Source of the DNA: Hydnum rufescens UP504
Taxonomy: Eukaryota > Basidiomycota > Agaricomycetes > Cantharellales > Hydnaceae
Reading direction: 5' to 3'
Assembly: GCA_014904985.1 (NCBI GenBank)
Contig: MU128949.1
Span: 95,323 to 159,322, forward strand
DNA length: 64,000 bases
Part shown: piece after piece, positions 30,886 to 64,000 of the stretch
Layout of the letters: each line of letters opens with the position of its first letter
Numbering within the stretch: the stretch's first letter is position 1
Translations under genes and position numbers: made by a program
The notes under the pieces: model-generated
The model's input: the letters and a program-made list of their open reading frames with translations, nothing else
What the model was told of the DNA's origin: nothing
Databases searched by the model: none

Positions 30886-31206
30886 TCATGGCTGGTTCGC
30901 AGAGTCCTCGCAGACCCTTCTGGCAGTAGCCTCTGTGGTAGCCTTAGCCTCCACGGCAGCCTTGGCCTCTGCAGCAGCCTTGGCCTCCACAGCTGCCTTA
31001 TGATGTGCCACCTCCACCACCTTCCACTTCACCTCCTCCTTCTTCCACTCCTCCACGAGCCTGGCCTCCTCCTGTGCCTCCCTCAATGCCTGTGCAGCCT
31101 CTTCATGGTGGAGACGAGCTTCTTCAAACAGAGAATGATTATTGCCTGACATGTTACATGGCACAAGAGCTCTGGATGTTTCCATGGATTGATCCTTCCA
31201 GCCCAC
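30886..31206 (-). CDS. Antisense coiled-coil frame in chromovirus 3' region
   Basis: A minus-strand frame of ~100 codons is rich in Ala, Glu and Lys with heptad-like spacing (EEAAQALREAQEEARLVEEW, KAAVEAKAAAEAKAAVEAKA). It stops at 30,886, 29 bp before the next antisense frame begins. The two may be exons of one antisense gene, but I found no splice pair that joins them in phase. Alanine-rich coiled coils can also arise from simple repeats on the sense strand. Confidence 0.35.
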   Translation of the reverse strand: MGWKDQSMETSRALVPCNMSGNNHSLFEEARLHHEEAAQALREAQEEARLVEEWKKEEVKWKVVEVAHHKAAVEAKAAAEAKAAVEAKATTEATARRVCEDSANQP

Positions 31207-31224
31207 TCGGGACGATCAGGCTTA

Positions 31225-31234
31225 AGAGGGGGGT
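31225..31234 (+). promoter_or_regulatory. Polypurine tract of chromovirus
   Basis: AAGAGGGGGG ends two bases (plus TAA-type linker) before the 3' LTR at 31,237, the expected position for plus-strand priming. Confidence 0.7.
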
Positions 31235-31236
31235 AA

Positions 31237-31866
31237 TGTCAGAGTTCATCTGTTTCCTGGTTAATTCCAGATTTGTTTCTGGTTTGTTTCCAGTTTTGGT
31301 TCCAGCCTGTTTCTGATTTGTCCCCATCTCCATTTCATTTCCCCTTCATTTCCTCATTTCCTTTACTTCCAGTTCCCACACACTTACCCCTGGCCCTGTC
31401 CCTGTTCCCTCCACTTTCCCGTCCCCTGCCCGCTCCCCTCTTGTGCCTGCCCCCCTGTAACCACCTCTCATTAAGCGATCAATCCCCTGTAGTATAGGAA
31501 CTATGTATAAGTAGTCCAGGGCGACATCCAGAGACTCAGCTTTGGTCTCTCAGGATTTCCACTTCTACTCCAGACTACAGGTTAGCCTCACTGTACCTAT
31601 TCCCTTAATGTTAATCTCAGGATTTCTGCTTCTACTCCGGACTACAGTCTGAGTACTTTCCAGTTGACTCCATGAGCTTAAGGACTGCTGTGCTCATTTC
31701 TGCCTAGTCCCTTCTGGGCTGCTGGACTGCCTCTCTGTCCCCTCCTATCCTCATTATCTCATTCTTGCCCGGATTCTCCCGGACTTAGCCAGACTTACAC
31801 CAGACTTAGTTGGAGTTATCTGTGTTTATATTTGTTTGGTGCTCTCATCGCAGCATGGCCCTGACA
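31237..31866 (+). repeat. Chromovirus 3' LTR
   Basis: 630 bp, TGTCAGAG...CCTGACA, followed by the target duplication GACCA. It contains TATAAG at 31,506-31,511 and the predicted self-primer AGCTTTGGTCT at 31,538-31,548. Confidence 0.92.
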
Positions 31867-31871
31867 GACCA

Positions 31872-33710
31872 ATAGCTTCAAACAGGATTGTGTTCTGTGC
31901 ATTATTATGCTGGACATTCTTTGATTGCTCTGACACACTTTGCATGATTGCTTGCAGTATGTGGTGGATTACAGAGTGTACCATTGGGTCCTCTGATGGT
32001 TCAGAATCAGTGCATCACAGAATGCACAGGTCATGGGTTCCACTCACTGGGTGTAGGATAATACTGCAACAAGCAAAGAAGCTTAACCTGCAACCAAGGC
32101 ATGGGAACTTTGTAGTAAAGATATTTGGCCAGGAACTCTTTTTCAATCATGATCTAATGGACTGGGGTCATCAAATATTGTCAGATATGGAATCTGGTGC
32201 ACCTTATGCAAGCAGTCCACAGATTTTGTGTAGCAGACTGCATATGCATCAAGATCATCTTGAGAAAGTGCCATGGCCAAACTTGTTACACAGATGATGA
32301 CACCCTATGAGCCAAATGTTATTAAAGCTCTTGAGCCCTTGAGATGCAAAATAGGAAAGGATGTCACACCAAATCCATATCATCCATGATGGACACTATT
32401 CACAATGCCCACTCATCAGCAGGAATCACATCAGGATGGTTCTGGTAGAGTTGAAGAAGTGTTAATAAAGCTTTCTTCTTCACAAAGCTTTGGAATGTTC
32501 TGCAAAATGGTGTCAGCAATGATCTCAAAATTGACTGAGAGACACCTATGGCAATGTTAATAATTGATGAACATCTGGAGCTAAGGACTAAGACTCTTGC
32601 ATTCGTGGTATGGAATGTGTTGCTGAGTCCACAGATCTTGCCAGAATTTGGCTATCCTGAAATTGACCATGTAAACCATGTCAGAGGTCTGAGTGTTAGG
32701 TAACCTGATGAGGAAGTTATCTATAGAAAAACCATAGTTAGTACTGTTGGTGGCTGCAGGTTGAACATCCTGAGGTGTGCATGCTTCTGAAGTCTGTTAC
32801 AAAAATAAGCATTGTCCTCGGGGGTGGTCTGCAATTCGAGTGTGTGCACTACAAGACATTAGTGGGATATATCCAAGAGAATGTTTTGACACAAAACAGT
32901 TGAAGAGTCAAAGAGCAATGTATAACACATTTGGGGCCTGCACATCACAGCAGTGACACTGCTTGAATTCTTTCATGTGGAAAGGAGGGAGGAGGGAGAT
33001 GAGGTTGTTGAAACCCTTTTCTAAGGCACTCACATCAGGGAAAGATGATATCACCCCAGTATGGATAGGCTTGATCTGGCTCTTGGTAATCATGGTAATC
33101 ATGCACATGAGATCACTGACAGAGCCAGCCAATTATTTCTCTCTCGAAGTCTCAGATTCAGTGGGTCTCCAGGCCACAATAATAAATACAAACTTACATG
33201 AATTGACTCACCTTTGGGGTAATCGCTGGAGTGACAGGTGGCAAACTTGATTGACCAAGCTTGAAGTGCCATGGCTGGATTAAGTTACAGTAGGAGTGAT
33301 TACAAAAGTTACTGGAGGTGTGCATAGTTGCTTTTACTGGCAAATGTGTTGATATAAAATGTGGAAATTTTTTCATACCTATTGATGCCATTTAGTGTAG
33401 TATCACACATGCCATTGAGGATGGGGGCAAGGGGGCAATATGAGACAATAGAAGAGAGGGGAGTGACTCCACCAGCATGAATCCCATTTGCCCACATCTG
33501 CTTATGGATTCAGTAGAGTTTGAGGAAGTGGACTGGAGAAGGTGGGATTGGGCAAAACCAGTGAACATATGCCAAAAGGGGCTGACCTGGTCCCAAGTGA
33601 AAGACAAGGCAGAGTTCACCAACCTGACAGTCTTACAATCATAAATTATTAGGATCAGTTAGGATCTTTGACACCAAGTAGCTTGGGGGTTTAATCCATA
33701 CCTTTGAGGT
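31872..33710 (-). other. Degenerate host-like coding remnants, unidentified
   Basis: Several minus-strand segments look like decayed protein sequence: GIHAGGVTPLSS with DTTLNGINRYEKISTFYIN (33.3-33.5 kb), ALEKGFNNLISLLPPFHM (33.0 kb) and QNIPKLCEEESFINT (32.5 kb). None has a motif I can name. They probably belong with 18,961-19,402 to sequence that the chromovirus split at GACCA. Stops and phase changes are frequent and CpG is rare. Confidence 0.35.
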
Positions 33711-33866
33711 AGGCTATTGCACGGGGTCCCCGCGGGGGAATTTAGGACCTCCCGCCCTGCGGGGTTGAAAACCCGCCCCCGTGACTCACGGGTGTAAAAG
33801 CCGCGGGATACAAGAAGGGGTTGAAAAACCCGGGGGACCCCGCGGGAACCCTGCGGGACAATGATC
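33711..33866. repeat. CpG-rich short interspersed element
   Basis: About 155 bp of CGCGGG-rich sequence begins AGGCTATTGCACGGGGT and ends near CCCTGCGGGACAATG, within otherwise CpG-poor DNA. The same 17-bp end occurs inverted at 38,028-38,044. It has no coding potential. It is either a separate small element or one end of a larger unit enclosing the palindrome. Confidence 0.55.
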
Positions 33867-34367
33867 ACAGTATTGATACCAGAGAATGACTGTAATTTGC
33901 TTGGGTGTGGTCCCTCAAGTTCCTTGTGCAATGTAGCAAGAGGGAGTGGCTGGAGGGAGAGGAGAGGAGTTGTGAGAGGGAATTACTTAGGAAGGATCAG
34001 GTCCTTGAATGAGATTGGCTGCCGACTCTCCACAGAGCCAGTGATTCAAAACTAATGACACTAAGTACTTAGGTGGGAAGGGGCCAAAGGGCTCATACAT
34101 TGGGACAGTCAGGGTGTTCATCTTCCACTAATCTCACCATCCACATCTTCATCCTCAACCATAATCCAGAGATTCCAGGGCACCATGAATGTCTTGATCC
34201 TTTCAAAAGTCGGGTGATCATCAGATTAATACACAGTAAAGACCTTGTGATGGGTTGAACATGGGCTTGAAGACTTCAGGGCAGATGTCACTATTTACAG
34301 AGTTGTGGGATAATGGATACATGGAGTTCGAACTGATTGGATAACGCGGAAACATGGAGGGGCTGAT
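33867..34367. other. Left flank of palindromic element
   Basis: No gene recognised. The sequence up to about 34,350 does not match the right flank of the palindrome (37,740 onward), so the inverted repeat starts at about 34,368. Confidence 0.4.
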
Positions 34368-35779
34368 TGCCACACACCCGCTTCGGCGGGTGTGTGGCTC
34401 CGTATTTGAGGTCGCCTCGTTGTATTGGTTGCGAATAGTCGAGAGTTAGGGTCTTGGGTGGCTGCGCGCATGCCTGTATTTCGCCCGGGCCTTGCCCGTG
34501 GATTCTTTGGACGGGGGTTTTGCGGAGTGAGAAAATCTAGAATAGTGCGTATGTTAGTTTTAAAAAAATAACAAAAGCAACGCCAAAAGAGCAGCCGGGG
34601 CTGCTCTTTTGGTGTCATTGTACACCCTGTAATAAAAAACACATACCTAATATTGCCACACACCCGCCAAAGCAGGTGTGTGGCACCGTACTTGTTTCGT
34701 CGTCGTATGGGTTGTGGGTACTCAAGAGTCGGGGTCTTGGGTGGCTGCGCACTCCTGTGTTTCGTGGTGCGTTGTCTGTGCATTCTCCGGGTTGGGTTTC
34801 GCAGAGGGAGAAAGAATTAAATACGTTAGTAAAAAAAAAACACAAGCAACGCCAAAAGAGCAGCTGGTGCTGCTCTTTTGGCGTTGTAATACACCCCATA
34901 ATTTTAAACAACGGACCTAATACACCCACCGAAGTGGGTGTGGCGCCGTACTTGATTCGTCGTTGTAGGGGTTGGGGATACGCGAGGGTTGAGGTCCTGG
35001 GTGGCTGTGCGCACGCCTGTATTTCGCCCGGGCCTTGTCCGCGGATTCTTTGGATGGGGGTTTCGCGGAGTGAGAAAACCTAGAATAGTGCATATGTTAG
35101 TTTAAAAAAAAAAACAAAAGCAACGCCAAAAGAGCAGCCGGGGCTGCTCTTTTGGCATCGTCGTACACCCCATAATAAAAAAACACATACCTAATATTGC
35201 CACACACCCACCAAAGTGGGTGTGTGGCGCCGTACTCGTTTCGTCGTCGTATGGGTTGTGGGCACTCGAGAGTCGGGGTCTTGGGTGGCTGCACACTCCT
35301 GTATTTCGTGGTGCATTGTCTGTGCATTCTCCGGATCGGGTTTTGCGGAGGGAGAAAGAACCTAGAATAATTAAATATGTTAGTAAAAAAAAAATACCAT
35401 AAGCAATGCCAAAAGAGCAGCTGGTGCTGCTCTTTTGGCGTCGTAATACACCCCGTAATTTAAAAAAACTGACCTAATACACCCACCAAAGTGGGTGTGG
35501 CGCCGTACTTGATTCGTCGTTGTAGGGGTTGAGGATACGCGAAGGTTGAGGTCTTGGGTGGCTGCGCGCGCCCCCGTATTTCACCCTTGGTGCATAATTC
35601 GACTGGGGTTTCGCGGAGGGAGAAAGGATCTAGAATAACAAATTTGTTAGTAAAAAAAAACAACACAAGCAACGCCAAAAGAGCAGCTGTTGCTGCTCTT
35701 TTGGCGTCGCCGTACACCCCAGATAGAAAACTTACCTAATAGTGCCACACACCCGCTGCGGCGGGTGTGTGGCACCATC

Positions 35780-36075
35780 TCGTGCTTGCTTCAGCTTAGT
35801 AGAGTAGAATCGGACGAGATTCAACACCGGCGATTGCTGGTCTCAAAAAAGCGCCCAAGTAGGGGCAGTACAAGGCTCATATAAATAGATAATAGATACC
35901 TACACATAGAATACTAAATAATACATATTTAGTATTATTCTATGTGTATCTATTATCTATTTATATGAGCCTTGTACTGCCCCTACTTGGGCGCTTTTTT
36001 GAGGCCGGCAATCGCCGGCATTGAATCTCGTCCGATTCTACTCTACTAAGGCCACCTGAAGCAAGCACGAGATGG
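35780..36075. repeat. Central core of palindromic element copy 1
   Basis: The centre lies near 35,924 in AT-rich sequence (TAGAATACTAAATA and its complement). Moving outward each side has AAAAAAGCGCCCAAGTAGG, then an imperfect CCGGCAATCGCCGGCATTGA-like palindrome, then AGTAGAGTAGAATCGGACGAG, before the innermost hairpin A. The GCGCCCAA and CCGGCAATTGCYGG words recur in the core of the copy centred at 59,844 and in the half copy at 55.5 kb. Confidence 0.75.
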
Positions 36076-36114
36076 TGCCACACACCCGCCGCAGCGGGTG
36101 TGTGGCACTATTAG

Positions 36115-37617
36115 GTAAGTTTTTTATCTGGGGTGTACGGCGACGCCAAAAGAGCAGCAACAGCTGCTCTTTTGGCATTGCTTGTGTTGTTTTTTTTTTA
36201 CTAACAAATTTGTTATTCTAGATCCTTTCTCCCTCCGCGAAACCCCAGTCGAATTATGCGCCGAGGGTGAAATACAGGGGGCATGCGCAGCCACCCAAGA
36301 CCTCAACCTTCGCGTATCCTCAACCCCTACAACGACGAATCAAGTACGGCGCCACACCCACTTCGGTGGGTGTATTAGGTCAGTTTTTTTAAATTACGGG
36401 GTGTATTACGATGCCAAAAGAGCAGCACCAGCTGCTCTTTTGGCATTGCTTATGGTATTTTTTTTTACTAACATATTTAATTATTCTAGGTTCTTTCTCC
36501 ATCCGCGAAACCCGATCCGGAGAATGCACAGACAATGCACCACGAAATACAGGAGTGCGCAGCCACCCAAGACCCCGACTCTCGAGTGCCCACAACCCAT
36601 ACGACGACGAAACGAGTATGGCGCCACACACCCACTTTGGCGGGTGTGTGGCAATATTAGGTATGTGTTTTTTTATTATGGGGTGTACGACGACGCCAAA
36701 AGAGCAGCCCCGGCTGCTCTTTTGGCATTGCTTTTGTTTTTTTTTTTAAACTAACATACGCGCTATTCTAGGTTTTCTCACTCCGCAAAACCCTCATCCA
36801 AAGAATCCGCGGACAAGGCTCGGGCGAAATACGGGCGTGCGCGCAGCCACCCAGGACCTCAACCCTCGCGTATCCCCAACCCCTACAACGACGAATCAAG
36901 TACGGTGCCACACACCCACTTCGGTGGGTGTATTAGGTCCGTTTTTTAAAATTATGGGGTGTATTACAACGCCAAAAGAGCAGCACCAGCTGCTCTTTTG
37001 GCGTTGCTTGTGTTATTTTTTTTTACTAATGTATTTAATTACTCTAGGTTCTTTCTCCCTCTGCGAAACCCAACCCGGAGAATGCACAGACAACGCACCA
37101 CGAAACACAGGAGTGCGCAGCCACCCAAGACCCTGACTCTCGAGTACCCACAACCCATACGACGGCGAAACAAGTACGGTGCCACACACCTGCTTCGGCG
37201 GGTGTGTGGCAATATTAGGTATGTGTTTTTTATTACGGGGTGTACAATGACACCAAAAGAGCAGCCCCGGCTGCTCTTTTGGCGTTGCTTTTGTTATTTT
37301 TTTAAAACTAACATACGCACTATTCTAGATTTTCTCACTCTGCAAAACCCCCATCCAAAGAATCCACGGGCAAGGCCCGGGCGAAATACAGGCATGCGCG
37401 CAGCCACCCAAGACCCTAACTCTCGACTATTCGCAACCAATACAACGAGGCGGCCTCAAATACGGAGCCACACACCCACCAAAGCGGGTGTGTGGCAATA
37501 TTAGGTGTGTGTTTGTTTTTATTACAGTGTGTACCATGGTGCCAAAAGAGCAGCACTAGCTGCTCTTTTGGCATTGCTTGTGTTCTTTTTTTTTTACTAA
37601 CCTATTTATTATTATAG
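36115..37617 (+). repeat. Right-arm array of intron-like and exon-like segments
   Basis: Intron-like segments: 36115-36221, 36379-36489, 36661-36771, 36937-37047, 37219-37328, 37505-37617 (107, 111, 111, 111, 110 and 113 nt). Donors are GTAAGT, GTCAGT, GTATGT, GTCCGT, GTATGT and GTGTGT. Each has hairpin B in the middle, a T-rich tract, CTAAC (or CTAAT) and an acceptor of the CTAG type. Exon-like segments between them are 157, 171, 165, 171 and 176 nt. Exons 36490-36660, 36772-36936 and 37048-37218 join in one open frame in the same phase. The left arm mirrors this on the minus strand (for example intron-like 35,630-35,735). Splicing is predicted only. Confidence 0.6.
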
Positions 37618-37894
37618 GTCCTCTCTCCCTCTGCACAACCCCACCTGAAGAATGCCACCCAAGACCCCAACCCCGAGTATCAATGACGAAATACATATGG
37701 TGCCACACCCACTTCGGCGGGTGTGGCAACATTCAGTTACATTTTATATTATGGTGCTCTTTTGTTGAATTTTTTTTCCTTACTAATGTAAATGTGTCTA
37801 TAATAATAATAAATTAATAAATAAATAATTGGTTACCTAACAGTGGACAGGAGATATGAATTTTGATGTTGAGATGATACATCCACTTACAGCC

Positions 37895-38044
37895 TCTGGT
37901 GGTTTCAAAACCCGCCTGCATATTCCCGGGGATGGCAAGTTCTTGGCGGGTTTTAGGCACAGGTCCACATTGGTACTCCCGCCCCACGGGGATTTCCCCC
38001 GCGGGGTCAAAACCCGCGGGTTTTGAAACCCCGTGCAATAGCCT
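37895..38044. repeat. CpG-rich short interspersed element, inverted relative to 33,711
   Basis: It contains GGTTTCAAAACCCGCC and CGCGGGTTTTGAAACC blocks and ends ACCCCGTGCAATAGCCT, the complement of the start of the 33,711 element. It adjoins the 3' cut end of the Plavaka-type gene, so it interrupts that gene. Confidence 0.55.
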
Positions 38045-39121
38045 AGTGAGAACAACATATGCATGGCAATTGATTTTTTGCCAGACATCTGACACAATGT
38101 TTCCCAGCATCAGATATGCAGTGTACATGACCTTATCACCCAAGAAGTTTGAGAGATGGGTCTTGTCAGTGGCAAGGATCACTCCAGTCAAAGTAACACC
38201 TCTGGGAAATGTATCCTATGGAAGGGTGAGCAATCTGGACACATAAAACAATTCTAAAAAAAAAAAAACCAACCTGGACTTCATTCCACAACAATCCAGT
38301 GACCATCTCATTATAGACATGGGTCACCCCATCAGGCTCAAAAACCTCAGGGGCCTCATACTGCATTGAATCCTGGAAGGTCAGATTGCCAAACAACTTG
38401 GCAATGCATTCATGGATGTTGTGATAAAATAAAATTTGTGGTTTGTCAGGTGCTTCCTCCATAACAATAGTCTTGGAAGACCACTGTGGACTGCAGTGCA
38501 TCACCTGTTCAACATGCTCATACATCTCCTTTGCAGATGTGAATGACAGTGTGCCCCTACTGCAAATCTTAAGATACATTAGTTGATGAATTTAGTTGAT
38601 GGCTAATTTACACTCACATATTTGAGATGCAAAAATTGATCAATTTTGGCAGCAGTGAGCTTGGACAGTGTCAGCCAAGCAACAAGATTGTATTCATCCT
38701 CAGTCACCCATGGATGAAACAGGAAGTCAGCATTTTCATTTTGTCAGATATTGTCCCATCGCATGCCTTCTTTGGGGCCCTTCTGTGCTGCTCCAGGGAC
38801 ACTGTAGATGATGTATTCATCCTTTGGGGCAGCTGGAACCATGTCATGAGGTGGTGATTCAGCAAAGTGTGGATTCTTGGTGATAACCCTATTGCTGTTT
38901 GTGTCCAGAACACTCTCATTGAGATCATTTTCATCCTCATTTGGATTGTCTTCCTCTGAGTCCTCATTTGGATCATCCTCATCAATATTTGTGGTATTGT
39001 CAGCAATGTGGTTCCTCAGGTCATGTTCATGTGCTTGTCTGCACATTGGTGTTTGGCTGACATGGCTCGAAAGGCCACGAGAAGACTTGAGACATTGATC
39101 ACAGTAGAGGCAATGATACAT
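38045..39121 (-). pseudogene. Plavaka-type transposase, N-terminal part, truncated
   Basis: ATG 39121 starts with a C2H2-like finger (HCLYCDQC, then GLSSHV and MCR). Exon 1 runs to 38,618 with one TGA after DNI. Intron 38,568-38,617 (GTGAGT...TTAAG) joins to 38,274-38,567, and intron 38,216-38,273 joins in phase to 38,045-38,215. The second and third exons give SSKTIVMEE, NIHECIAKLFGNLTFQDSMQY, YNEMVTGLLWNEVQ, and GVTLTGVILATDKTHLSNF followed by AYLMLGNIVSDV. These match the conserved start of Plavaka-group transposases of Agaricomycete DNA transposons. The catalytic core is lost where the CpG-rich element begins at 38,044. Acidic DNEDDPNEDSEE-like repeats lie between the finger and the core. 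Confidence 0.7.
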
Positions 39122-39818: not shown

Positions 39819-39891
39819 CTGGTGGAGTGTGTAAGAACTCCATTGGTGGGTCCCTACAGGACTGCCCATGGTTCGAACTCAGCACCCTCAT

Positions 39892-40524
39892 TGTCAGGGC
39901 CATGCTGCGACGAGGGCACCAAACAAATGTAAACACAAATAATTCTGGCTAAGTCTGGTGTAAGTCTGGCTAAGTCCACAAGAATCTGGGCAAGAATGAG
40001 ATAAGGAGGTCAGGGATGTTGGAGGAGTGGTCCAGCAGCCTGGAAGGGACTAGGTGGAAATGAGCACAATGGTCCTTAAGCTCATGGAGTCAACTGGATA
40101 ATACTCGGAGCTGTAGTCCAGAGTAACAGCGGAAATCCTGAGATTATGTAATATGAATATGGAATACATGAAGGCTGACCTGTAGTCCGGAGTAACAGCG
40201 GAAATCCTGAGAGACCAAAGCTGGGGTCTCTGGACTTCGCTCTCGGACTACTTATACATGATGACTATACTATGGGGGAGTGATCGCTAAACTGTGGGTG
40301 GTTACAAGGGGGACAGGAACAGGAACAGGAACTTGGCCAGGGGGCAAACCGGAAGCAATGGGAAATGAAAGGGAAATGAATAGGGTTGGATTGGAGTCAA
40401 ACCAGAAGCAAAGTGGACTTGGGCAAAGGAACTAAGTGGAGAACTGGACTGGAGGTGGGTGGACAAGGGCCAGAGTGATCTGGAGTGGACCGGAGTGGAC
40501 CAGAGTAAGGGACAAACCCTGACA
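39892..40524 (-). repeat. Solo LTR related to the chromovirus LTR
   Basis: On the minus strand it begins TGTCAGGGTTTGTCC and ends CATGGCCCTGACA. The target duplication is CTCAT (39,887-39,891 and 40,525-40,529). It shares the AGCTTTGGTCTCTCAGG block with the chromovirus LTR but belongs to a distinct subfamily, like 52,482-53,124. It was left by LTR-LTR recombination inside the 10.26-kb element. Confidence 0.88.
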
Positions 40525-40529
40525 CTCAT

Positions 40530-43500
40530 CCTCCTTCTGCACACCCTCAGATGCAAATGTTTGTGATTTGAATGTTGGCAAGAGTGCCTCCAGATCCTCA
40601 ACAGCTCAACCTCTAATGTCCTCATCCACTTATGGGAATCAGCTGCCTAACCCCCTGCCTTGCAGGTGTTACAAGTCATACTTGTAACCTCACTTACATG
40701 TGCAGAATAACCAAGCCAATCATGCCATCACGTGACCTTCCCCCTTGCTGCCATTGTGCCTTCCTCTTTCAGCAATTCCTATTATATACATCCCTCCTTT
40801 ATTCAATATCCCTTTATCCATAAACCCTTTTGATCTCTAGAAGTATAAGTAGTTACTTGATGTACACTTGCTCTTTAGAAGATTGAGAATATATTGTCAA
40901 CTGATTGAATTCCCCTTTCATGATCTCAGTTATTGCTCATGACTCTCATCTTAAACCTTCGCATATTAACTCTCAAGAAACCAGTCTTCCTCATACCTAT
41001 TCGTCTCTCATGACTTACATAATCCTTGCTTCATGTCTCTCTTGTCAATTGCCTTAAGGGCATTTCCTTGTATCTGACTTGATTATGTAATTGTATCTCT
41101 CACCTTGGGTACAACCCTTAACAGCAGGGTGGATACCTCAAGAAGGGTGGCCACTCCCCTTAAAAAATATGGTGACCCTAGTCTCATAAGGATCACCAAT
41201 GACTCATGCTTGTCTCATCCTAGACCTTACAATGTTCTTATGGATGCAAATGTAGCTCTTCCATCCTTCAAGGATCAGTCTCCTAGAACTTCTGTTTCCA
41301 GATGAGTCCACAAGCCACTCATTGACAGAACTCTTAGCCCCCTCTCAAACAGGGTGGATACCTCAAGAAGGGTGGTCACTCCCCTAAATTTGTGTCATAG
41401 ATATGGATGCCTTTGGTCTGGTTTAAACCTTGGGAACCTGGGTTTAAACCTAAACCAGACCCAGGTCTGGTTCCATTGGGGTCAGGTTTCCTTCAATTTT
41501 CCTCAGGTCTGGTTTAGGTTTTGCCCTTGCCCTGAATCCAAAACCTGGTTCAAACCCAGGTTTAAACCTGAACCTGAAAGGTAGGGTGTACCTTCCAGTC
41601 TATGTACTTTCACCCTTATTTCTCCACATATTATCATTATCATCCTTCTATACATTCAATTCCAGAAGTAAACCTAGCAATTTGCACACAGTACTGTAAT
41701 TTCAGAGTCAAAAGTTGCATGACTCTGGAATCTAATGGGGTAATCTGTGCAGGTTGCAAAGCACATGGCTCTGGGATCAAATCTGGAGGTTTGCACAGGT
41801 TACTGTAACTCAGTCTAGGGTCACATGACACAATTTAGTTAGCTAAGTTCCATCCCCTGGAGATATGTAAGCAGAAAATTGATGTGAAGGAGGGGTGTGA
41901 ATGAGATATGAATGGAAAATGGGATGCAAAGGAAGTGGTCAATGCAAAGACTCACACAGAGAGCCCAGATAGCCTGTAGTACTTACTAAAATGTTTTGCT
42001 TCTCCTATATCTCAGGTTTCAGGTTTAAACCTGGTTTAAACCCAAACCAAACCACTCTGGAACCAAACCTCAGGTCAGGTTCAGGTTTTGCCCTCATGGG
42101 TGATTTCAGGTTCAGGTCTGGTTTAGGTTTTGCCCAAGTTGGCAAAAACCAAACCAAAACCGAACCTAGGCATCCCTAGTCATAGACCAGGTTCACCTTG
42201 TACTCAGCTATCTGACACCTCTGTGGCTAGACAATCTAATGTACATCTGGACACACAATCCTTGAGCCACCACCAAGTTCATTCTGGCTATAATATGGGC
42301 TTGTGCCCTGTTCCCTCCATGGTGTCTAACTACCAGTCAAACAAGGCCTCAAGAACCACCTGGTCAGGGAACGCACATCATAAGACTCAGTTCTGCCATT
42401 CTGTTAACGAAGTCACCCCCTTGAGTCATAACTACTGTTCTGGGATTTGTAATCTGTCTTTCCCACCTTACAAGGCTATTTGGGCTTCACTGCATCGAAG
42501 CAATAAGTTCAACTTCTGTAAAGCCACAAATCTTATTTCTACATGGCTTGACTGGCTACTCTATGATCTAAATGTGGACTCAAGTTGTTTCCTTAGTCGG
42601 ATTGTGCATGAGTCCTCCAGGGTTTCAGTTCATTACAAGCTGGATATGGCACTAGCACACCCAATCTCACAATGCAGATACATACTACAGGAGGTAGTAC
42701 AGGAAACTGTACAACTTCATGGAGTAATGCCATGTGCAGGACACAAAGTCAGTTTGAGTGACCTCGAGTACTGAGACCTCATAAATGGGTCACACTCCTT
42801 GGATGGGCTCCAGTATATAGTCTTGCAAGCACAGCTGCGTCTCAGGGTAGCCTTGGACATAATAGCCTTTCATTCAAAACCCCCTGTGATAGAGTCCACA
42901 TTCCATGCTGTCCATTCCCAGGAGCCTGTTGCACAGCAAGGTGACTTATCGTGGATTGTAGGACCTAAATAGGAACCCAACCCCAGAATTCCGACTAAAG
43001 ATGAGCCCGGGGTAATCAAGACAAGGCAGCCCTGTGGTCATACTCTGGGGTTCAATGAAGGGTCTGATCAGTCCACTGCCATAAGACTCAAGTCAACCAT
43101 GAGTACCACACAGACCAAGCACCATATCGAGGATGTAGATATTGTTTCAGTCAAAGCTGAGGGATATCATTACAGTATGATGGAAAACACCTCCTGAACA
43201 CATGAGGTCACATCAGACTTGACCAGTCAATGAGTTCCAATTAAGATCCTGAATATGTCCAATGATCACTACCGGATGCTGAACTACTTGAGTTTTCAGA
43301 ATACAACAAAGGAATGCCCATCCTCCATGAGTAAACTAGGACCCAGTGAAATGGAGCTCCTGTGAAAGGACATCCTGAGGTCTAGCCAACAAGTCCCAAT
43401 TAAAGTCCTGAACTCACCCATGGATCACGGCCTGTCAAACATTGGTATAGCCAAGAAGGAAAGGGGGAACCTCATGCACCTATGTCTGTGAGTGGATCTA

Positions 43501-54232: not shown

Positions 54233-55353
54233 GATGAATGCAAAAGTTATATTCAAACTGATGAGGAAGATTGATGTGTGAGAGTTCCAGTCAAGTGGAT
54301 CAAGTACAGTCAAGAACACATGACTCTGCCACTTGACTGATTATCTAACTGGGAGACTGAGGCTCATTCCTCATTCTCAGTCTCTGTCAGTACAGTAGGC
54401 TGATGAGGTTATGGCATGTTTTGAGGCAAATCCATCCATCTCAGATCCATGGAATGGACAAGAGAAGATGATTGGCCATGTTCTAGTGATAGCTCCTGCA
54501 ACCCAAATGGTATAGCTAGATGGGCACCAATGATTAAAATGATTCTAGTTGACAAGGTGGAGCCATCAAGCTAGGGGTGTCTGGTAACAAATTCATATCT
54601 GACTCAATTGACTGCAGACAATTAGGAGGTGAATGAGTCAAAGCCTGAGATAAACAGGGACCATTGTGGTATCCATCCTCATGACATGGATTACTCCAAA
54701 ATATGGGTGAAGCCAAGGTTGCACTGGCCTGGAAGCACTGCCATGGACAATTTTTAACTAAATATGGAAATTTTCAGGTCACCTGATGACCTCTTTCTCT
54801 TGAAAACCCTTTCTTACATAAACATAAGAGCAGGCTGGTCAGACACTCTTGGGGGCCTTAAAAGGTATGTCATTTTGATATCTGTATAGTGCCTGATAGG
54901 CTTGTATTATGTTTGATATCAAAAAGTGATCAAAAGAGTATTTGATAGCAAAGAGTTGGGTTTTGAGCTCAAGTTGAGATCAATTTGAGATCAATTTTGG
55001 AACTTGTAGAATTCTGCACTGGCCGACCTGTCAATTACCTAATATCCTAAATAGGTAATTATGTAATCCACCCAAAAAAGCAGTGACATAATCATACATA
55101 ACAATAATAGTATTATGTAATATTAAATTACATAATTAGCTGATGATATAATCAAATATATTATGTAACATGGTACTTAATATACATAATTACCTAATTA
55201 ATTATTATCTAATTAATTACACAATCCAGGTTGCATGACCACCACACCAGCAAGAGGGGGCACCCCTGCCCCAGACCAACTAGAGGGGTGGGGGAGGGGC
55301 TAGAGGGGCCACCAGAGGGGAAGGGGGCCCCAGGGTGTGCACTTAGGGGGATC
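54233..55353. other. No gene; AT-rich tract
   Basis: 54,233-54,410 resembles the flank of the other gag-like copy. 55,020-55,220 is very AT-rich (many TAATTA and TTATGTAA words). Nothing else was recognised. Confidence 0.45.
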
Positions 55354-55640
55354 CTATAATGGGGGAATGACGGGTTAGTTGAAAAAATCAATATTAGTGC
55401 AAAAAGGGCAGCAAGAGGCAGCCCTTTTTGCACTAGAGTAGCTAAAATGCAATAACATACCTTAACACCACACCCCAGTCTATACTGGGGTGTGGTGGCT
55501 TGTCCTGGGCTCTTGGTAGATGGAGGTGGTGGTGTCACACAACTGAAAAAATTGCCGGCAGTTGCCAGTAAATTGAACCTGGGACTCAATGCCGGCAATT
55601 GCCCAGTTTCAAAGGCAAGCCACCTGCTGCTATGAAAAAA
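55354..55640 (-). repeat. Half copy of palindromic module element
   Basis: On the minus strand, hairpin A (55,467-55,497, ACCACACCCCAG paired) is followed by a 107-nt intron-like segment (55,354-55,460, GTATGT...CTAAC...TATAG) with hairpin B inside (55,396-55,434, GCAAAAAGGGCAGC paired). To the right lie core words CCGGCAATTGCC (about 55,594) and a related CCGGCAGTTGCC. The mirror arm is missing. Confidence 0.7.
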
Positions 55641-55779
55641 CCTAAATGCAGTAACTAGATAGACCAATATAATAGGGTTGATTAGATAATACACCATAAT
55701 AACTTTGGATCAAATCTCATTACATAATACAGTGATTACTATTAAAAAAAGCCTAAATGCGGAAATTGAATGAAGTACA

Positions 55780-56190
55780 TCCAAATAAGTGCTGAGCAGA
55801 TCACTCTGAAATTTGGTACATGATTAGAGACTACTTCTATGCAAATTACATCAAAATTTCAGCCACCTTGGTCCAAGGCTTATGGAGATATAAGGCAAAC
55901 AAGTCTGGATATTGAAAATTCATTTCCTCCCCTTCCAGACCAGCTAGAGACTCAAAATCGGCAGGAATCCAGATGATATAATGTACTAATCATGTGCCAA
56001 GAATCAGCCCAATCCATGCACTTTAAGGGAATGAACTGCACAATAGGTACCAGAAGCACTGGAAATTGCTGAAATGCAAGGAGTGTGAGGATCGTTCTGA
56101 ATTTTGGCACGTGATTAGACACTGTTTGGACGAAGAACATATCAAAAGTTCAGCCAGATCCATGCATTAATTACAGAGATATGGGGAAAA
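55780..56190. repeat. Diverged direct repeat, ~300-bp unit
   Basis: GATCACTCTGAAATTTGG... TGATTAGAGACT... TTTCAGCCA at 55,800-55,880 recurs as GATCGTTCTGAATTTTGG... TGATTAGACACT... TTCAGCCAG at 56,089-56,160. The second unit passes into the left arm of the next palindrome. Confidence 0.55.
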
Positions 56191-58062
56191 CAAGTTTAAA
56201 CATTGAATATCAATTTACTCCCCCCACAGACAAGCTATGGACTTGAAATTTAACATGGGGAATGATCATATAATTAACTAACTATGTGCCAAAAATCAGC
56301 TTATTCTGTGTACTTCTAGATATTCAACTCCCTTTTCAGGCAAAAAGAGAACAACAAGCTACCATGAATGTTAAACACTTTCAATAACACCCAAAATAGG
56401 TCAAATGGTCTGGTAATATTATAGCCCTGACTGTGTCAAACAATGGAATCACTTGGATGTGTGGAAGTAGCTGAAATTGAGGGGGAGGTGGAGGAAGATC
56501 AAAGTGCATTACATAAGATGTAGAGCAGGGGTGGCTTTGATATTACACCACTGAGTTAATACATATATGGGGAGTCCACATGCCAGATTTCAGCCCAACT
56601 GGACTCCATTTAGGCAGTTTTCCACAGGTCTCCCCCCTAAACAACAATTTCCTCCCCAGAGCCTTCCATCCACACAATTCCCTTGAAAATGCACACTTAG
56701 ATCATTCAAATGCATCTATACCATCCCTCAAATTTTCAAACTCATGACTCCAGTGTCAGAGTCTCCATAATATTTTCAAGTTTCACTGAAATACACCCTC
56801 CAGTTGGGACACTTCCAGATCTCCAATCACTCTGATTTTTTGTAGGAGACACCCAGTCACCATTTGAGGCTCAGCCAGCCCATTCTAAACACTTTTGACA
56901 CCAGTCACATGACTAGGTTCTTCCCCTCCCCCTGCTCCACTCAGTGATCCAATTTGTATGAACTTTGATGCCCCATGTAGTAGTAGTATATGAGAGTGCA
57001 TGATTCAAATTTCAGGACACTCCATGCAATATTCATTGAGTTATTCAAGAAATATGCTAGATCAATTCACTTTGGGGTCAGAACTATGGTAAATACTTGG
57101 ATGTACCATAGTTCTGACCCCAAAGTGAATTGATCTAGCATATTTCTTGAATAACTCAATGAATATTGCATGGAGTGTCCTGAAATTTGAATCATGCACT
57201 CTCATATACTACTACTACATGGGGCATCAAAGTTCATACAAATAGGATCACTGAGTGGAGCAGGGGGAGGGCAAGAACCTAGTCATGTGACTGGTGTCAA
57301 AAGTGTTTAGAATGGGCTGGCTGAGCCTCAAATGGTGACTGGGTGTTCCTACAAAAAATCAGAGTGATTGGAGATCTGGAAGTGTCCCAACTGGAGGGTA
57401 TATTTCAGTGAAACTTGAAAATATTATGGAGACTCTGACACTGGAGTCATAAATTTGAAACTTTGAGGGATGTTATAGATGTGTTTGGATGATCCAAGTG
57501 TGCATTTTTAGGGCAATTACATGAATGGAAGGCTCTGGGGAGGAAATTGCTGTTTAGGGGGGAGGCCTGTGGAGCACTGCCTAAATGGAGTCCAGTTGGG
57601 CTGATATCTGGCATGTGCACTCCCCATATGTATTAACTCAGTGGTGCAAATATCAGAGCCACCTCTGCTCTACATCCCATGTAATTCACTCTTGATCTTC
57701 TTCCCCCTCCCCCCCAATTTCAGCCACTTCCACACATCCAATTCATTCCATTTTCAGATATAGTCAGGGTTATAATATTATAAGCCTATTCCACCTAGTT
57801 CAGGTTTATTTTGAACTGTTTAACATTCATGGTAGCTTTTTGTTCTCTTTTTGCCTGAAAAGGGAGTTGAATACCTAGAAGTAAACAGAATAAGCTGATT
57901 CTTGGCACATGTTTAGTTAATTATGTGGTCATACCCCATGTCAAATTTTAAGCCCATACCTTGTCTGTGGGGGGGAGTAAATTGATTTTCAATGTTTAAA
58001 CTTATTGTCCTTATAGCTCTGTAATTAATGAACGGATCTGGCTGAAATTTTGATATCTTTTT
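56130..58062. repeat. 1.9-kb palindrome with ~960-bp arms, no modules
   Basis: The centre is near 57,094 (GGTCAGAACTATGG and its complement). The arms pair through CATGGAGTGTCCTGAAATTT, TAGCTACCATGAATGTTAAAC-type words and CAGCCAGATC near the outer ends. The arms differ by scattered substitutions and small indels, so it is not recent. It has no open frame of note and no hairpin A/B modules, so it is a different foldback family from its neighbours. Confidence 0.85.
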
Positions 58063-58235
58063 CACCTAAGTAATCAGCCCTGGCTGTAAGATTATATGCT
58101 AAAAACCCACAAAGCTCCTGTAATAATTCATGCCAGCTTCATGGGATAGCATATGATTACTAATACAGCCCTGGTTGTCAGATTGCATGCTAAAACCCCA
58201 CAAAGCCTGTTGTAGCATTTGATTACTAATATTCA

Positions 58236-58275
58236 TTATTATTATTATTACTTATTTATTTATTTATTTATTTAT
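58236..58275. repeat. ATT / TTTA microsatellite
   Basis: ATTATTATTATT followed by five TTTA-type units. Confidence 0.85.
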
Positions 58276-60277
58276 CACTATCTATATTATTTACATACAT
58301 CCACAGTAGCACAGAAAGAGTAGCCACAGCTACTCCTTCTGTGCAAGTGTATCTACAACAATAAAAAAGACCTTACCTTACACCAGTAAGGCGGGTGTGG
58401 TGCATGGCTTCCTGTGTTTTCATTTCGTCTGTTTCGTGGGTTGTTATTCCCAGGTGTCATATTTCATTCAGTGGACCTTCAGTTCGTGGTTCATGTGAGT
58501 TTCAAGTCAGGAGGGGGATTGTCACTGGTTCTGGGCTTGGATAACAAAGCATTAGTGAAAAAAGAAAAAGAAAAAAAGTACTTACCTTTAAATCACCACA
58601 CACCTACTAAGGCAGGTGTGTGGTGGAGTTCCCGCACTTTCATTTCGTCTGTTTGCACAGGTCGTCATTCCACATGCAGGCTTGGGGTCGCAGGGTTTTT
58701 CTCGGCAGGTTTGGGATCATGGGGTTTGGGGTGGCAGGTCTGGCATTGTGGGCAGATCTAGAAAAATAACAGTGTTAGTTAATGAAAGAATAAATAAAAC
58801 AAGAGGAAAGTTGTGCAAAAGGAGCAGCTGGTGCTGCTCCTTTTGCGCGATGGTACTGGTAGCCAGAGTACTTCAAAATCACCACACCTGCCTCAGCATG
58901 TGGTGCATGGGGTTTCCACATTTTCATTTTGTCCATGTCACGGGTTGTCCTTTGCACACATTCTGGGGTCAGGTTGTTGTTGGGCATATCCCTGGGTTGT
59001 CACTGGGTGAGTTTTCACCTTGATCATGTACAATAAAAGATAAGATTAGTTAAAAGTAAAACCAGCACAAAAAGAGCAGCCTTTGCTGCTCTTTTTGCGC
59101 AGTTGGGGACATTGGGGGGGGGAGGACTCATCTCATATAGAGAACCACACACCTGCTATGGCAGGTGTGTGGTTTGTGCTGTCACTCACTGGGCCCATTG
59201 TCGTCCATTGTCGTCGCATTCATTGCAGTTGTTGCATTCATTGCAGTCATCATGTTCATCATGTTGCTGTGGTTTTCTTTGTCTGACATGGTCCCATTGG
59301 GGCCCTTGTCATTTGGCTGGTTGTCAACTGGTACCTAGGACCAGGGTGTGTAAGTAAATAAGTTCAAAGCAGCACAAAAAGAGCAGCTTTTGCTGCTCTT
59401 TTTGTGCTGTTGTAGCTACTACAAGAAAACTCACCTAGTGACCACACACCCGCAGTGGCAGGTGTGTGGTCATCTATTTCCTTGTTGGGTGGTGGCTGCG
59501 TAGTTGTGAGAAAGAACACAACTCAATGCCGGCAATTGCTGGGATCCAAAAAGCGCCCAAATGCCTGGTGCCATGAGTGCTGTATGAATCAGAAGCAAGT
59601 AGCTAGGTGTATAATAAATAATAAATAAATCATATTTTCCCAAAAAACGAAGAAGACCATGACAATACTCAGAGTTCAATAAGGGATGATATGCTGCATT
59701 GAAAAGTGGATTGGGCAATTTGTATGGTTCAGAATTGGCCCAAATTTAAATATATTGCTGGCATACATGACCCCCTACATGGGCGATTAATTATTTTGGA
59801 CACTCCCTTCATTTTTCAATTTTTCATGCCCTCAATTCCCTAAATAGGGAATTGAGGGCACAAAAAATTGAAAAATGAAGGGAGTGTCTGAAATAATTAA
59901 TCGCCCATGTAGGGGGTCATGTATGCCAGCAATATATTTAAATTTGGGCCAATTCTGAACTGCACAAATCACCCAATCCCCTTTTCAATGCAGCATATCA
60001 TCCCTTATTGAACTCTGAGTATTGTCATGGTCTTCTTCATTTTTTGGGAAAATATGATTTATTTATTATTTATTATACACCTAGTTACTTGCTTCTGATT
60101 CATACAGCACTTGTTGGTGCCAGGCATTTGGGTGCTTTTTGGATCCCAGCAATTGCCAGCATTAAGTTGCCTTACTTAGCAGCTATGCAACAACCCACTG
60201 AATGAGGAGCAGATGGCCACCTAGAAAGGCAAGCAAACAACCACACACCTGCTGCAGTGGGTGTGTGGTCATACAAG

Positions 60278-61844
60278 GTGAGTTTTTTTTAAATCCTAGT
60301 CACTACATCAGTGCAAAAAGAGCAGCAAAAGCTGCTCTTTTTGCACTTCTTTTACTTCTTAACTGACACCCTTTTCTTTCAAATCTAGGTTTGATCTTTC
60401 ATGCAAATGAATAGCAACACAAAAACCCCAACAGCCCCCCATATCAACACCAGGCCAGTAGTAACAGGGATGATGTATGAAGAACCACCCAAGCAAGAGT
60501 CTGCACAACCCAAAAAGCATGACAGTGCATGGATGGAGCAAAATGAGGTACCACACACCCACCATGGCGGGTGTGTGGTACTACAAGATGTTTTTTTTTT
60601 TTAAATTATTTCTTAATTATTTTGTGGCACAAGAAGAGCAGCACAAGCTGCTCTTCTTGCTAAGTTTTAATCATTTAACTAATATTGTTTATTCTCTAGA
60701 TCTTAAGCTCGAACCTGCATGAACACGCTGAGCCTAACCCCGTGACCCCAAACCCACAGAACAAATGCCTGCCCAATGAAAACTCACCATATGAACACCA
60801 CCCACCCAATGGAAACCTGCCAAACAAAGAGCCACCAAACACAGACTGCCAAACACAGACTGCCAAACACAGACTGCCAAACAGAGGCCCACCATACAAA
60901 AACCCCACACACCCACTATGGGGTGTGTGTGGTTATATATAGGTAAGTGTCCTGTGTATGTGACTGCACAAAGAGAGCAGCATTTGCTGCTCCCTTTGTG
61001 CTGGTTTCAAATTTTAACTAACATCTCTATTACTCTAGGACCTTGCCTGAACCAGAAGCCACTGGACGAACACACACCAAACAAGCCCCCCCTCTTGAAT
61101 GACAATCTGGTGGATGAACACTGCCAAATGAACCCCCGCCTGATGAAAACCCGCCAAATGAAGAACCCATGCCAACCACATGCCTGCTGCAGTGGGTGTG
61201 TGGTGTGATATAAGGTAAATAGATATAGTGTATGCAACTGCACAAAAAGAGCAGCATTTGCTGCTCTTTTTGCACTGGTTATAAATTTTAACTAATATCT
61301 TATTGATTTTTCTAGGACATCGCCTGGACCAGAACCTGGTGAATGGAACACATGGCAATTGAGCCCTCCCCCTCCTCTCTTCCCAAATGACAATCTGCCA
61401 AGTGAATAGCCACCAAATGAAGAACCCATGTGAACCACACACCCACTGCAGTGGGTGTGTGGTCCTATATAAAGTAAGTCACCCCCAGTAGATACAGCCA
61501 TGCAAAAAGAGCAGCTTAAGCTGCTCTTTTTGTGCTGGTTCAAATTTCTAACTAACTTATATTTCATTATTCTAGGCCATGATCTGAACCAACACCTGCA
61601 TGAGCCCAGCTGAAACTCCCTAAAAGGAAAGCTGCCAACTAAAGACCTGCCAAGCAAAGCCCCACCGAATGAAAAACCCTTGCAAACTGCACACCCACCA
61701 CAGTGGGTGTGCAGTTCTATATGAGGTAAGTAACACTGTGTACCCCAACAGTGCAGAGCATGAGTATGATCACACAAAAGGAGCAGCACAGGCTGCTCCT
61801 TTTGTGCTTTTTTTTTTTTTTCACTAACATGTTGTTTATCTTAG
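60278..61844 (+). repeat. Right-arm intron-like/exon-like array of copy 2
   Basis: Intron-like segments: 60278-60388, 60588-60699, 60943-61038, 61215-61315, 61474-61575, 61726-61844 (111, 112, 96, 101, 102 and 119 nt). Donors are GTGAGT, ATGTTT (altered), GTAAGT, GTAAAT, GTAAGT and GTAAGT. Each contains hairpin B (AAAAAGAGCAGC paired, or a variant), an AACT or CTAAC-type branch region and a YAG acceptor. Exon-like segments (199, 243, 176, 158 and 150 nt) each end with hairpin A. Their sequences are rich in CCAAATGAA/CCAAACA words and differ from copy 1 exons, although the module layout is the same. Confidence 0.6.
60835..60888. repeat. 14-bp tandem repeat
   Basis: CCAAACACAGACTG is repeated with a 14-bp period about 3.5 times within an exon-like segment. 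Confidence 0.85.
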
Positions 61845-62060
61845 GCATTCTTCTGAACCCACAGCCACACAACCTGCATCAACCCCCCCACCCAAAAGAA
61901 CTGCCAAGCAGAGGCCCACTGAGTGAACACTGCAACCCCGCTGAATGAATGCCACAACCCCGCCGAGTGAAAACCATGACCCTGTGAATGAAAACCACAA
62001 CTCTGCCAACTGGAAACCCACAACCCTGCCAAATGAAAACACGTGACCCTGCAGAGCAAA

Positions 62061-63351
62061 ACATGGGGCCCATAGATAGATGTGTATAATATATATAATA
62101 ATAAATTAATAATTATCCATGAGAATAAACAATAATAAATAAATAATCATAGTTGCTGATAAGCCCATTTGGCCTGTTGACCCACTTGGGGCATTCCCAG
62201 GCTTGCTGGGACCTATCCTGATACCCCCAGCCAAATATATCCATGTGCTTCTGTTCACAGTGTTATTTGAGCTGTGGGGCAGACAGACCTAAGGTCACCC
62301 TCTTGAGATTATTTGATATCAAAGGATTTTGATGCCCATTAGGCTTTTGATTTGATGCAGTTTGACCTACCTATTGAGGCCCCTCTAAGTGGCTGACCAA
62401 GGTGCAAACCATCGGTAGCAGTGGCAAGTGCCAATCCCTGACTCTAAAGCCATTGGGATGGTCCGGATGGTGGGGGCGATGCATTGGGATGTACTGATGG
62501 TTTAGGAGAGAGGCACCTTAATCCTTACTGTGTATCATGCAGTTCAAGAGTTGTGTTGTTTCATCCAAGATTTTCTTTGTAGCTGGGTTCAAGGCTTTAG
62601 GTTGGGTTTACTGATGTCAAAATAATGGCATTCATGGCCATTGGATGATGATGTAAACTTTGCAATGGATACATGAAGAGATGTGTATAAACTGAGCAAC
62701 AATTTCTCATGCTTATTTGATGAATTGCAAAGCAAAGTCTGAGTCAAGACAGAATTCACTGATCCACTGCCTCTTGAACGTAGTCAATCATCCTCTAAAG
62801 ATTCAGCTCTGATTGTCATTATAGCAACACTCTTGATGAGGGCCACAAATATGAACCCTTCCCATCTCCATCTCACTGTCCAATGTCCCCCAAACACATT
62901 CTGGATACTCTTTAGGTGCATGGTCATTCATCCTGACAAACCAGTCAGCCATAATTGTATATCTAGTTAGGCCCTTTTGCCTTGCTTTTATTCAATCTAA
63001 GAGTGGGTTTTTAGGTGGGGGCCCCTGGGGCCCACTGGGTGATTTCATGGCATGAGACAAGGGGCCCCTCTCACCTTAGACTGGGACTTAGAGATTCTCA
63101 GACAATGGCAAGAAGTCACGGTCTTTCAGTCTGACTTAGAGATTCTCAGACTTGCAGGACAGCAGGCCATACAGGCTTATCAGGGATAGTATGTTCCATT
63201 TATAATTATTTATTTATTATCACTATATTATACTTATGCTACCCCAGGTCAGCAGGGTTTCATTCAGCAGTCCCATTATTCTTATTATTTATTTATTTAA
63301 ATACTGTATCTGTGGTACTCAGTAGAAATCCAAAGAAAAAACACTACTTAG
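62061..63351. other. CpG-poor sequence without recognised gene
   Basis: 62,080-62,150 is A/T-rich simple sequence. Degenerate minus-strand frames near 62.8-62.95 kb (WFVRMNDHAP, EMEMGRVHICGPHQE) might be relics of a gene but match nothing I know. Confidence 0.4.
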
Positions 63352-64000
63352 TAGCACCACACACCCACTCTAGCGGGTGTGTGGTACTGTCCATAGAAAT
63401 AAAAGAACACAAAAATTAAAATAAAAACTATCTAGTAGCACCACACACCCGCTTGGGCGGGTGTGTGGTACCGGGGGTGTGGCTTGGCACTTCACAGGTG
63501 GGCATGGGTTGTGGGTTGCCATTGGGGTGGGTCGTTGTTTTGGATCCTAGAATCATAGTGTATATTAGTAAAAAAATTCAAAGTAACACAAAAGGAGCAG
63601 CTTGTGCTGCTCCTTTGGTGCAGTTGTACTTATAGAGGGCAAATACTTACTTTAAAAATTATCACACCCGCCGAAGCAGGTGTGGGGTTCATCCGGGGCT
63701 TCTGTGGCCTCGCGTCGTGTTCTGTCGTTTGCGGGTTTCATTTGGGGGATGGGTTGCTGTTGTTGCGTATTTATTCGGCGGGGTCGTGAGTCTTGATTGA
63801 GGGTTTAGAAGAATACCTATGATAATAAGTAATAAGTTAGTAAAAAAAGAAAAACCATGCAAAAGGAGCAGCACATGCTGCTCCTTTTGCGCGGTCGTAC
63901 TTAAACAGTAAATACTTACGTTAAAAATTATTATCACACCCGCTGAAGTGGGTGTGGGCTTCATCTGGGGCTTCTGTGGCCTCGCGTGTTCTGTCATTTG
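63352..64000 (-). mobile_element. Palindromic module element, copy 3 (left part, cut by window end)
   Basis: Hairpins A at about 63,357, 63,441, 63,662 and 63,933 alternate with hairpins B at about 63,590 and 63,857 (CAAAAGGAGCAGC paired). On the minus strand the intervals have CTAAT/CTAAC followed by CTAG or TAG acceptors, so this is a left arm whose centre lies beyond the window. CpG content is intermediate between copies 1 and 2. Confidence 0.7.

Follow-up and report, generated by a model that had tools for sequence, protein, structure and literature searches.

The closest described systems each share part of the architecture considered here. Foldback-like elements such as Galileo have long inverted repeats with tandem subrepeats, the number of which varies among copies (PMC3573991). 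Introners are mobile DNA with spliceosomal intron signals, and many introner families have terminal inverted repeats (TIRs) or target duplications (PMC9860276). The symmetrical stwintrons of the Hypoxylaceae are fungal introns whose internal symmetry allows them to fold back (PMC8469720). Zisupton transposons make 8-bp target duplications, and Kyakuja shows 7-bp duplications and no TIRs (PMC12730594). We analyzed a 64,000-nucleotide (nt) stretch of contig MU128949.1 of the basidiomycete Hydnum rufescens UP504 (positions 95,323 to 159,322; hereafter the window), which holds at 33710..38045 an element with features of several of these systems: a palindrome whose arms are arrays of candidate introns. 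Our searches of open-licence literature yielded no palindromic element with iterated introns. We read the element, with moderate confidence, as a non-autonomous DNA transposon that is likely served in trans by a KDZ transposase and whose palindrome consists of two outward-pointing, non-coding arms with multiplied modules that are predicted to be spliced.

The initial annotation, made from the window's letters, had taken the palindrome at 34368..37735 for the entire element. The real unit is larger: homology to other copies starts at 33710 and stops at 38045, which delimits 4,336 bp that enclose the palindrome. The left TIR (TAGGCTATTGCACGGGGT, 33710..33727, + strand) is identical over 18/18 bp to the opposite end, where its perfect partner lies at 38028..38045 on the − strand. 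The genome search and copy alignment proposed in that annotation gave these ends and also revealed target duplications in most of the two-ended copies. Among ten such copies, five have exact 8-bp duplications, one an exact 9-bp and one a 7-bp duplication, one an 8-bp duplication that includes a single mismatch, and two have none. In the genome searched (63.2 Mb, 539 contigs), a 16-base TIR word occurs at 86 and 82 sites with at most one mismatch, compared with 0 and 1 in the control. Because of the perfect 18-bp TIRs and the target duplications of other copies, we consider the element a non-autonomous TIR DNA transposon, probably of the KDZ type.

The near-perfect palindrome (34366-37735) consists of 11 modules, five in the left arm and six in the right. 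The five left-pointing modules (34366..35899, − strand, 1,534 nt) are mirrored by five right-pointing ones (35946..37499, + strand; the arms are reported as 1,534 nt each), and an extra, outermost right module together with the hairpin A that follows it (37500..37735, + strand) has no left partner. In-register inverted pieces of the two arms are 96-99% complementary, which bears out the two inverted arms of alternating hairpins A and B that had been described. Read outward, a module comprises an exon-like stretch, hairpin A, ATTAG, a GT donor, hairpin B, a T-run, CTAAC or CTAAT, and TAG. It thus amounts to an exon of ~157-176 nt with hairpin A at its end, plus an intron of ~110 nt that encloses hairpin B, and the module period in the right arm is 264-286 bp. 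Hairpin A reads CCACACACCC...GGGTGTGTGG, with some modules shorter, and hairpin B is GCCAAAAGAGCAGC, four bases and GCTGCTCTTTTGGC. The earlier idea of a repetition of intron modules therefore holds as regards iterated, outward candidate introns with a central hairpin, but the repeated unit is exon plus intron and not the intron alone.

Between the arms lies a core (35795..36050) in which a 105-nt inverted pair flanks 46 nt. Its edges carry a conserved, outward-facing block, promoter-like by prediction, with a TATA-like stretch, TACTTGGGCGCTTTT and then a GCAATYGCC box; AATAAATAA is abundant at the outer ends. Across copies, of the 288 modules that lie no more than 2 kb from a core edge, 286 point outward, in agreement with the orientation first reported. 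Hairpin A was likewise said to end the exon-like segment just before the donor, and an inverted repeat was found upstream of the donor in 313/328 well-oriented modules, 294 of them of the CACAC type. In 201 of these 294, 19-21 nt separate the end of the hairpin A loop from the called donor; in many of the remainder our script had placed the donor within hairpin A itself.

The modules carry the signals of U2-type spliceosomal introns, with a GT donor, a branch and an AG at fitting distances in 10 of the 11 window modules. The predicted introns of the right arm (+ strand, 107-113 nt) are R1 at 36115..36221 (GTAAGT, CTAAC, CTAG), R2 at 36379..36489 (GTCAGT, CTAAC, CTAG), R3 at 36661..36771 (GTATGT, CTAAC, CTAG), R4 at 36937..37047 (GTCCGT, CTAAT, CTAG), R5 at 37219..37328 (GTATGT, CTAAC, CTAG) and the outermost, R6, at 37505..37617 (GTGTGT, CTAAC, ATAG), so that five of six have CTAAC as the branch and five of six end in CTAG. 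On the − strand, splice signals delimit four predicted introns of 106-112 nt in the left arm: L1 (35630..35735), L2 (35362..35473), L3 (35080..35190) and L5 (34537..34646). Module L4 runs from its donor (34916) to its branch only (34829..34916), the acceptor having been removed by a short deletion. The initial annotation had placed every hairpin B within a segment of 106-113 nt with a donor, CTAAC and a CTAG-type acceptor; this is right for ten of the 11 modules, one of them with CTAAT as the branch, and L4 is the exception.

The same annotation had stated that copies lacking GT, branch and AG at the corresponding positions would speak against introns, and we found the signals kept at those places elsewhere in the genome. 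The exact hairpin-B pattern has 539 genome sites and 0 in the control (it is palindromic, and both strands report identical sites). Hairpin B served as the search key and so cannot count as evidence itself, whereas the neighbouring splice signals can. We collected 45 sources, namely the window and 44 loci (38 stretches and six more). In these, a donor and a branch-acceptor accompany 285/362 hairpin-B cores in one orientation, compared with 2/362 in the reversed sequence. A looser scan of 47 sources called 372/403, with a median intron of 110 nt and a CTAAC or CTAAT branch in 296/372, but it has no usable control, since its reversed version kept just 12 hairpins and was not used, and its donors are the script's best matches, some of them misplaced.

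The clearest case comes from within the window, where a second, diverged element of like design lies at 54900..62404. It has palindromic cores at ~57.1 and ~59.8 kb (56849-57346 and 59576-60111) and right-pointing introns at 60.3-61.85 kb, and its exon sequence is almost unrelated to that of the first element. The filler between the signals is at shuffled-level identity (masked intron 0.44 vs 0.42; exon 0.50 vs 0.50), and 5/6 of its right-arm modules still pass the strict donor and branch-acceptor test. Distant relatives have thus kept splice signals and hairpins while the filler drifted, and we therefore predict that the host likely splices the RNA of this mobile DNA. Among closer copies, neither GT nor AG has changed. 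In the family of the window element (F1), compared in 17 alignments of 10 loci with both arms counted, which are not independent, GT was changed in 0/168 and the acceptor in 0/252 site comparisons; two comparisons in a second family (F2) gave 0/94 and 0/44 for GT and 0/96 and 0/42 for AG.

Set against the known systems, the element seems, from its sequence, to work like a foldback with spliceable subrepeats, yet by the features tested it is neither a terminal foldback nor an introner. It shares with Galileo the long inverted repeats and the varying number of tandem subrepeats, but its arms are not terminal, as they start 656 bp (left) and 310 bp (right) inward of the 18-bp ends, and its subrepeats bear splice signals. 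Introners are single introns in genes, whereas here many predicted introns stand in one non-coding mobile array; the boundaries of the mobile unit enclose many modules and are not those of one intron, although no search was made for single module introns within genes. The stwintrons of the Hypoxylaceae are also single, lie in genes and come without target duplications (PMC8469720), in contrast to the arrayed introns with an internal hairpin found here.

We infer that the arms are transcribed and spliced and that selection for splicing preserves GT, CTAAY and AG. Each arm would be a non-coding transcription unit that starts at the promoter-like edge of the bidirectional core. Splicing is predicted at each intact module, where it would remove hairpin B and leave hairpin A in the RNA. 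The two arms would not pair with each other because both give same-sense RNA. The hiding of hairpins from transcripts, one of the roles first suggested, would be feasible for hairpin B alone, since hairpin A sits in the exon. Tandem duplication probably multiplied the modules and inverted duplication the arm, and a KDZ (Zisupton-type) transposase supplied in trans would likely move the element. Host introns look shorter than those of the element: by our own reading, 10 of 11 gaps between neighbouring actin matches measure 40-67 nt. With hairpin B folded, the 110-nt intron would come closer to this size. If the introns are spliced, each arm of this mobile DNA retains five or six of them even as the sequence separating the signals drifts. 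It would then offer a system for asking why transposons maintain introns, how introns multiply together with exons, and whether splicing alters the silencing of fungal transposons.

Several observations weigh against this reading. The copies are related to one another, so that the conservation counts are not independent. Like L021, the window copy (33710-38045) is two-ended but has no target duplication, and it carries one module of 11 in which the acceptor is gone. Site differences in F1 were 7.2% in exons, 5.2% in the rest of the intron, 2.5% in hairpin B and 6.6% in hairpin A. In F2 they were 6.0 and 6.3% in exons and 3.7 and 2.7% in the rest of the intron; hairpin B, at 3.8 and 3.2%, was no slower than the latter. 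Outside CpG-type contexts the values for exon and rest of the intron are 2.6/1.9, 1.3/1.7 and 1.2/0.9%, which reduces the gap between them in F1 and leaves it small or reversed in F2. In nine module groups of up to four modules each, introns were more conserved than exons in 36/36 unmasked group pairs, a result that is partly a product of the module-finding procedure. With hairpin B, donor, branch and acceptor masked and the last 45 nt of the exons dropped, introns were ahead in just 25/36 pairs, with a mean excess over shuffled sequence of 0.065 vs 0.057 for exons. We have therefore withdrawn the proposal that introns are conserved beyond exons; because the masked comparison gave only 25/36, we conclude that intron and exon filler drift alike while the motifs persist. 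Further points on this side, one arm with skewed codon phase, exons that are unexpectedly open, and a KDZ domain in the opposite orientation, are given with the data to which they belong.

As a separate observation, 523/785 of the listed types of F1 exon changes (36115-37617) are C-to-T or G-to-A, and 91% are transitions. This bias suggests methylation or a process like repeat-induced point mutation.

The alternative that survives best, although we find it doubtful, is that the arms are foldback-like and kept for DNA reasons only, the intron signals being relics of an amplified exon-intron fragment that is unspliced today. The hairpins would then act as cruciform sites or as dyads bound by a transposase or a protein of the host; in the foldback-like Galileo, a role in secondary transposase binding has been proposed for the tandem repeats (PMC3573991). 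Hairpin B shows covariation, a point in favour of our own reading, with pairs 5, 11, 13, 14 and 15 of its 17 standing most clearly above shuffles that ignore relatedness, and three introns folded in silico gave z-scores of -4.4 to -5.1. The stem mismatches speak for the DNA-only alternative: a stem selected as RNA is expected to accept G.U more readily than A.C, but G.T and A.C mismatches, scored in the orientation of the transcript, have similar frequencies (43:41 in hairpin A; 42:52 in pairs 0-12 of hairpin B). The sole nominal excess of G.T, 67 vs 44 in hairpin B (p 0.036), includes 20 G.T that stem from one outer position. Selection on folding of the RNA stem is thus not supported. Because stem mismatches show no strand preference, the hairpins were probably retained for a second, DNA-level reason, serving as dyads for binding or as cruciforms; another possibility is that template switching renews the stems. 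Unlike the stems, the splice signals are tied to one strand, and their persistence calls for a different reason. As relics they should have diverged along with the filler. In fact donor, branch and acceptor are all still present where the filler matches no better than shuffled sequence, and GT and AG are unchanged in all copies compared. On these grounds we prefer predicted splicing of the arms, with the hairpins maintained in addition as DNA.

An intron-encoded hairpin RNA seems improbable to us. Small nucleolar RNA (snoRNA) host genes have non-coding exons, repeated exon-intron units and a structure within the intron, and by analogy the arm would be a host transcript, with hairpin B set free as a small structured RNA from the introns after their excision. 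The element shares these three traits, and the stable intron hairpin and its covarying stem fit as well. It differs from snoRNA hosts in being mobile and palindromic, and the window gave zero Rfam matches at gathering score and no tRNA. The stem is also short and does not favour G.U over A.C, and the masked introns are conserved no better than the exons.

We attach little probability, slightly less than to a hairpin RNA, to the possibility that a repetitive protein is encoded in the exons, with the arms as ordinary genes for it that a transposon carries. In its favour, exons are more open than base-shuffled sequence, spliced chains hold frames of up to 216 aa, and one arm is skewed in the codon phase of its variable sites. 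But antisense frames are equally open, exon lengths modulo 3 are 77/58/83, and four arm frames compared with Pfam gave no match above the cut-off. Of three arms compared for the phase of their variable sites, two show none (p 0.85 and 0.82). The third, the right arm of the C138 element (L010 8962-9917), has phases of 37/20/18 (p 0.013), which we cannot explain. Raw substitutions per phase, in which shared changes are counted repeatedly, were 329/324/269, 171/137/210 and 90/44/52; the second set spans an uncalled intron, and the variable-site test of that arm was limited to its first four introns. Coding exons are therefore not supported by substitution phase, exon length, open frames or Pfam, and we read the exons as non-coding, with a reserve for the open frames and the one skewed arm. 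Finally, an assembly artefact such as a mirrored or collapsed contig, a possibility raised at the outset, has the near-perfect arms as its sole support and is very improbable, since many other contigs hold palindromic copies that vary in flanks, duplications and number of modules, and the arms in the window differ by an extra module and a deletion.

Returning to the transposon reading, a KDZ (Zisupton-type) transposase is the likely source of mobility, judging from the ends and their neighbourhood. The copies have the 8-bp duplications and TIRs expected of this group. As hAT transposons usually generate 8-bp duplications too, this length is not diagnostic. The genome has at least 154 KDZ domain matches, and we compared 150 listed KDZ positions with 100 listed TIR sites. 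Up to 7 kb from a TIR, these lists give six KDZ domains on the inward side and two on the outward (contigs C373 and C374); five of the inward domains are co-oriented with the TIR (at 4,649, 4,653, 4,726, 6,185 and 6,856 bp), and one, at 6,976 bp, has the opposite orientation. Within 15 kb, nine listed domains are inward and five outward. Candidates for an autonomous copy are the loci C19:124849, C26:386337, C50:222691, C87:13064 and C163:77127. The abundance of KDZ domains, together with the short introns and the branch motif, also points to a basidiomycete host. For hAT, 2 of 90 listed matches lie less than 7 kb inward of one of the listed TIRs (2,731 and 5,490 bp), the second of which falls past the other end of that copy, and one is outward. 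The element differs from a typical member of the group in that the window copy encodes no transposase, and palindromic intron-like arrays are not mentioned in the excerpt of PMC12730594.

The modules are not confined to one kind of transposon end. The families that share them end in TAGGCTATTGCA TIRs with 8-bp duplications, in CACCTTGG.CAGCC, or in CAAACCAGTCAGCC. Modules occur in elements with CACCTTGGACAGCC ends (for example C138, L024, L025, L035 and L040) and in others with CAAACCAGTCAGCC ends (C169:11916, L027, L032 and window 62937). Copies listed for the second window element include those on C34, C28, C455 and C101. At its right end, which resembles the CACCTTGGACAGCC end, five listed matches stop at 62404 and one a base later; its left end was not found. 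For the second family as a whole one end was found, the inverse end being absent among the stretches examined, and matches extend to at least C138:164799. A third element with module hairpins starts at 62937 and is cut by the window edge (62937..64000); it shares its end sequence with C169:11916, L027 and L032.

This distribution raises the possibility, which we regard as speculative and somewhat doubtful, that the modules form a mobile cassette of a new kind. Such a cassette would be a spliceosome-dependent unit of non-coding RNA, iterated and arranged in mirror pairs, that recurs across transposon families and is kept because passing repeatedly through the spliceosome benefits its RNA or DNA, for instance in splicing-coupled silencing. 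In Cryptococcus, RNA interference is coupled to splicing, and such coupling is one idea of why transposons would carry introns.

Some minor observations concern these families and the surroundings of the element. At G000:C77:200874-201249 two F1 TIRs face each other 376 bp apart, perhaps a miniature inverted-repeat transposable element of the F1 family. A second-family exon contains a word similar to the F1 TIR (for example CAGGCTTTTGCGTGGGG) at L010 6940, L024 1493, L025 1466, L035 1476, L038 1608 and L040 1488; it is either due to chance or a vestige of common origin. Two further high-copy repeats flank the element in the window, at 31001-31880 and 39880-40535. Pieces of a long terminal repeat retrotransposon, with reverse transcriptase RNase H, integrase zinc-binding and Tf2-1-like SH3 domains, lie at 27994-29841, and an open frame at 11583-12194 resembles a class 3 lipase (Pfam E 5.7e-6), its frame seemingly broken, by eye, by introns of ~56 nt.

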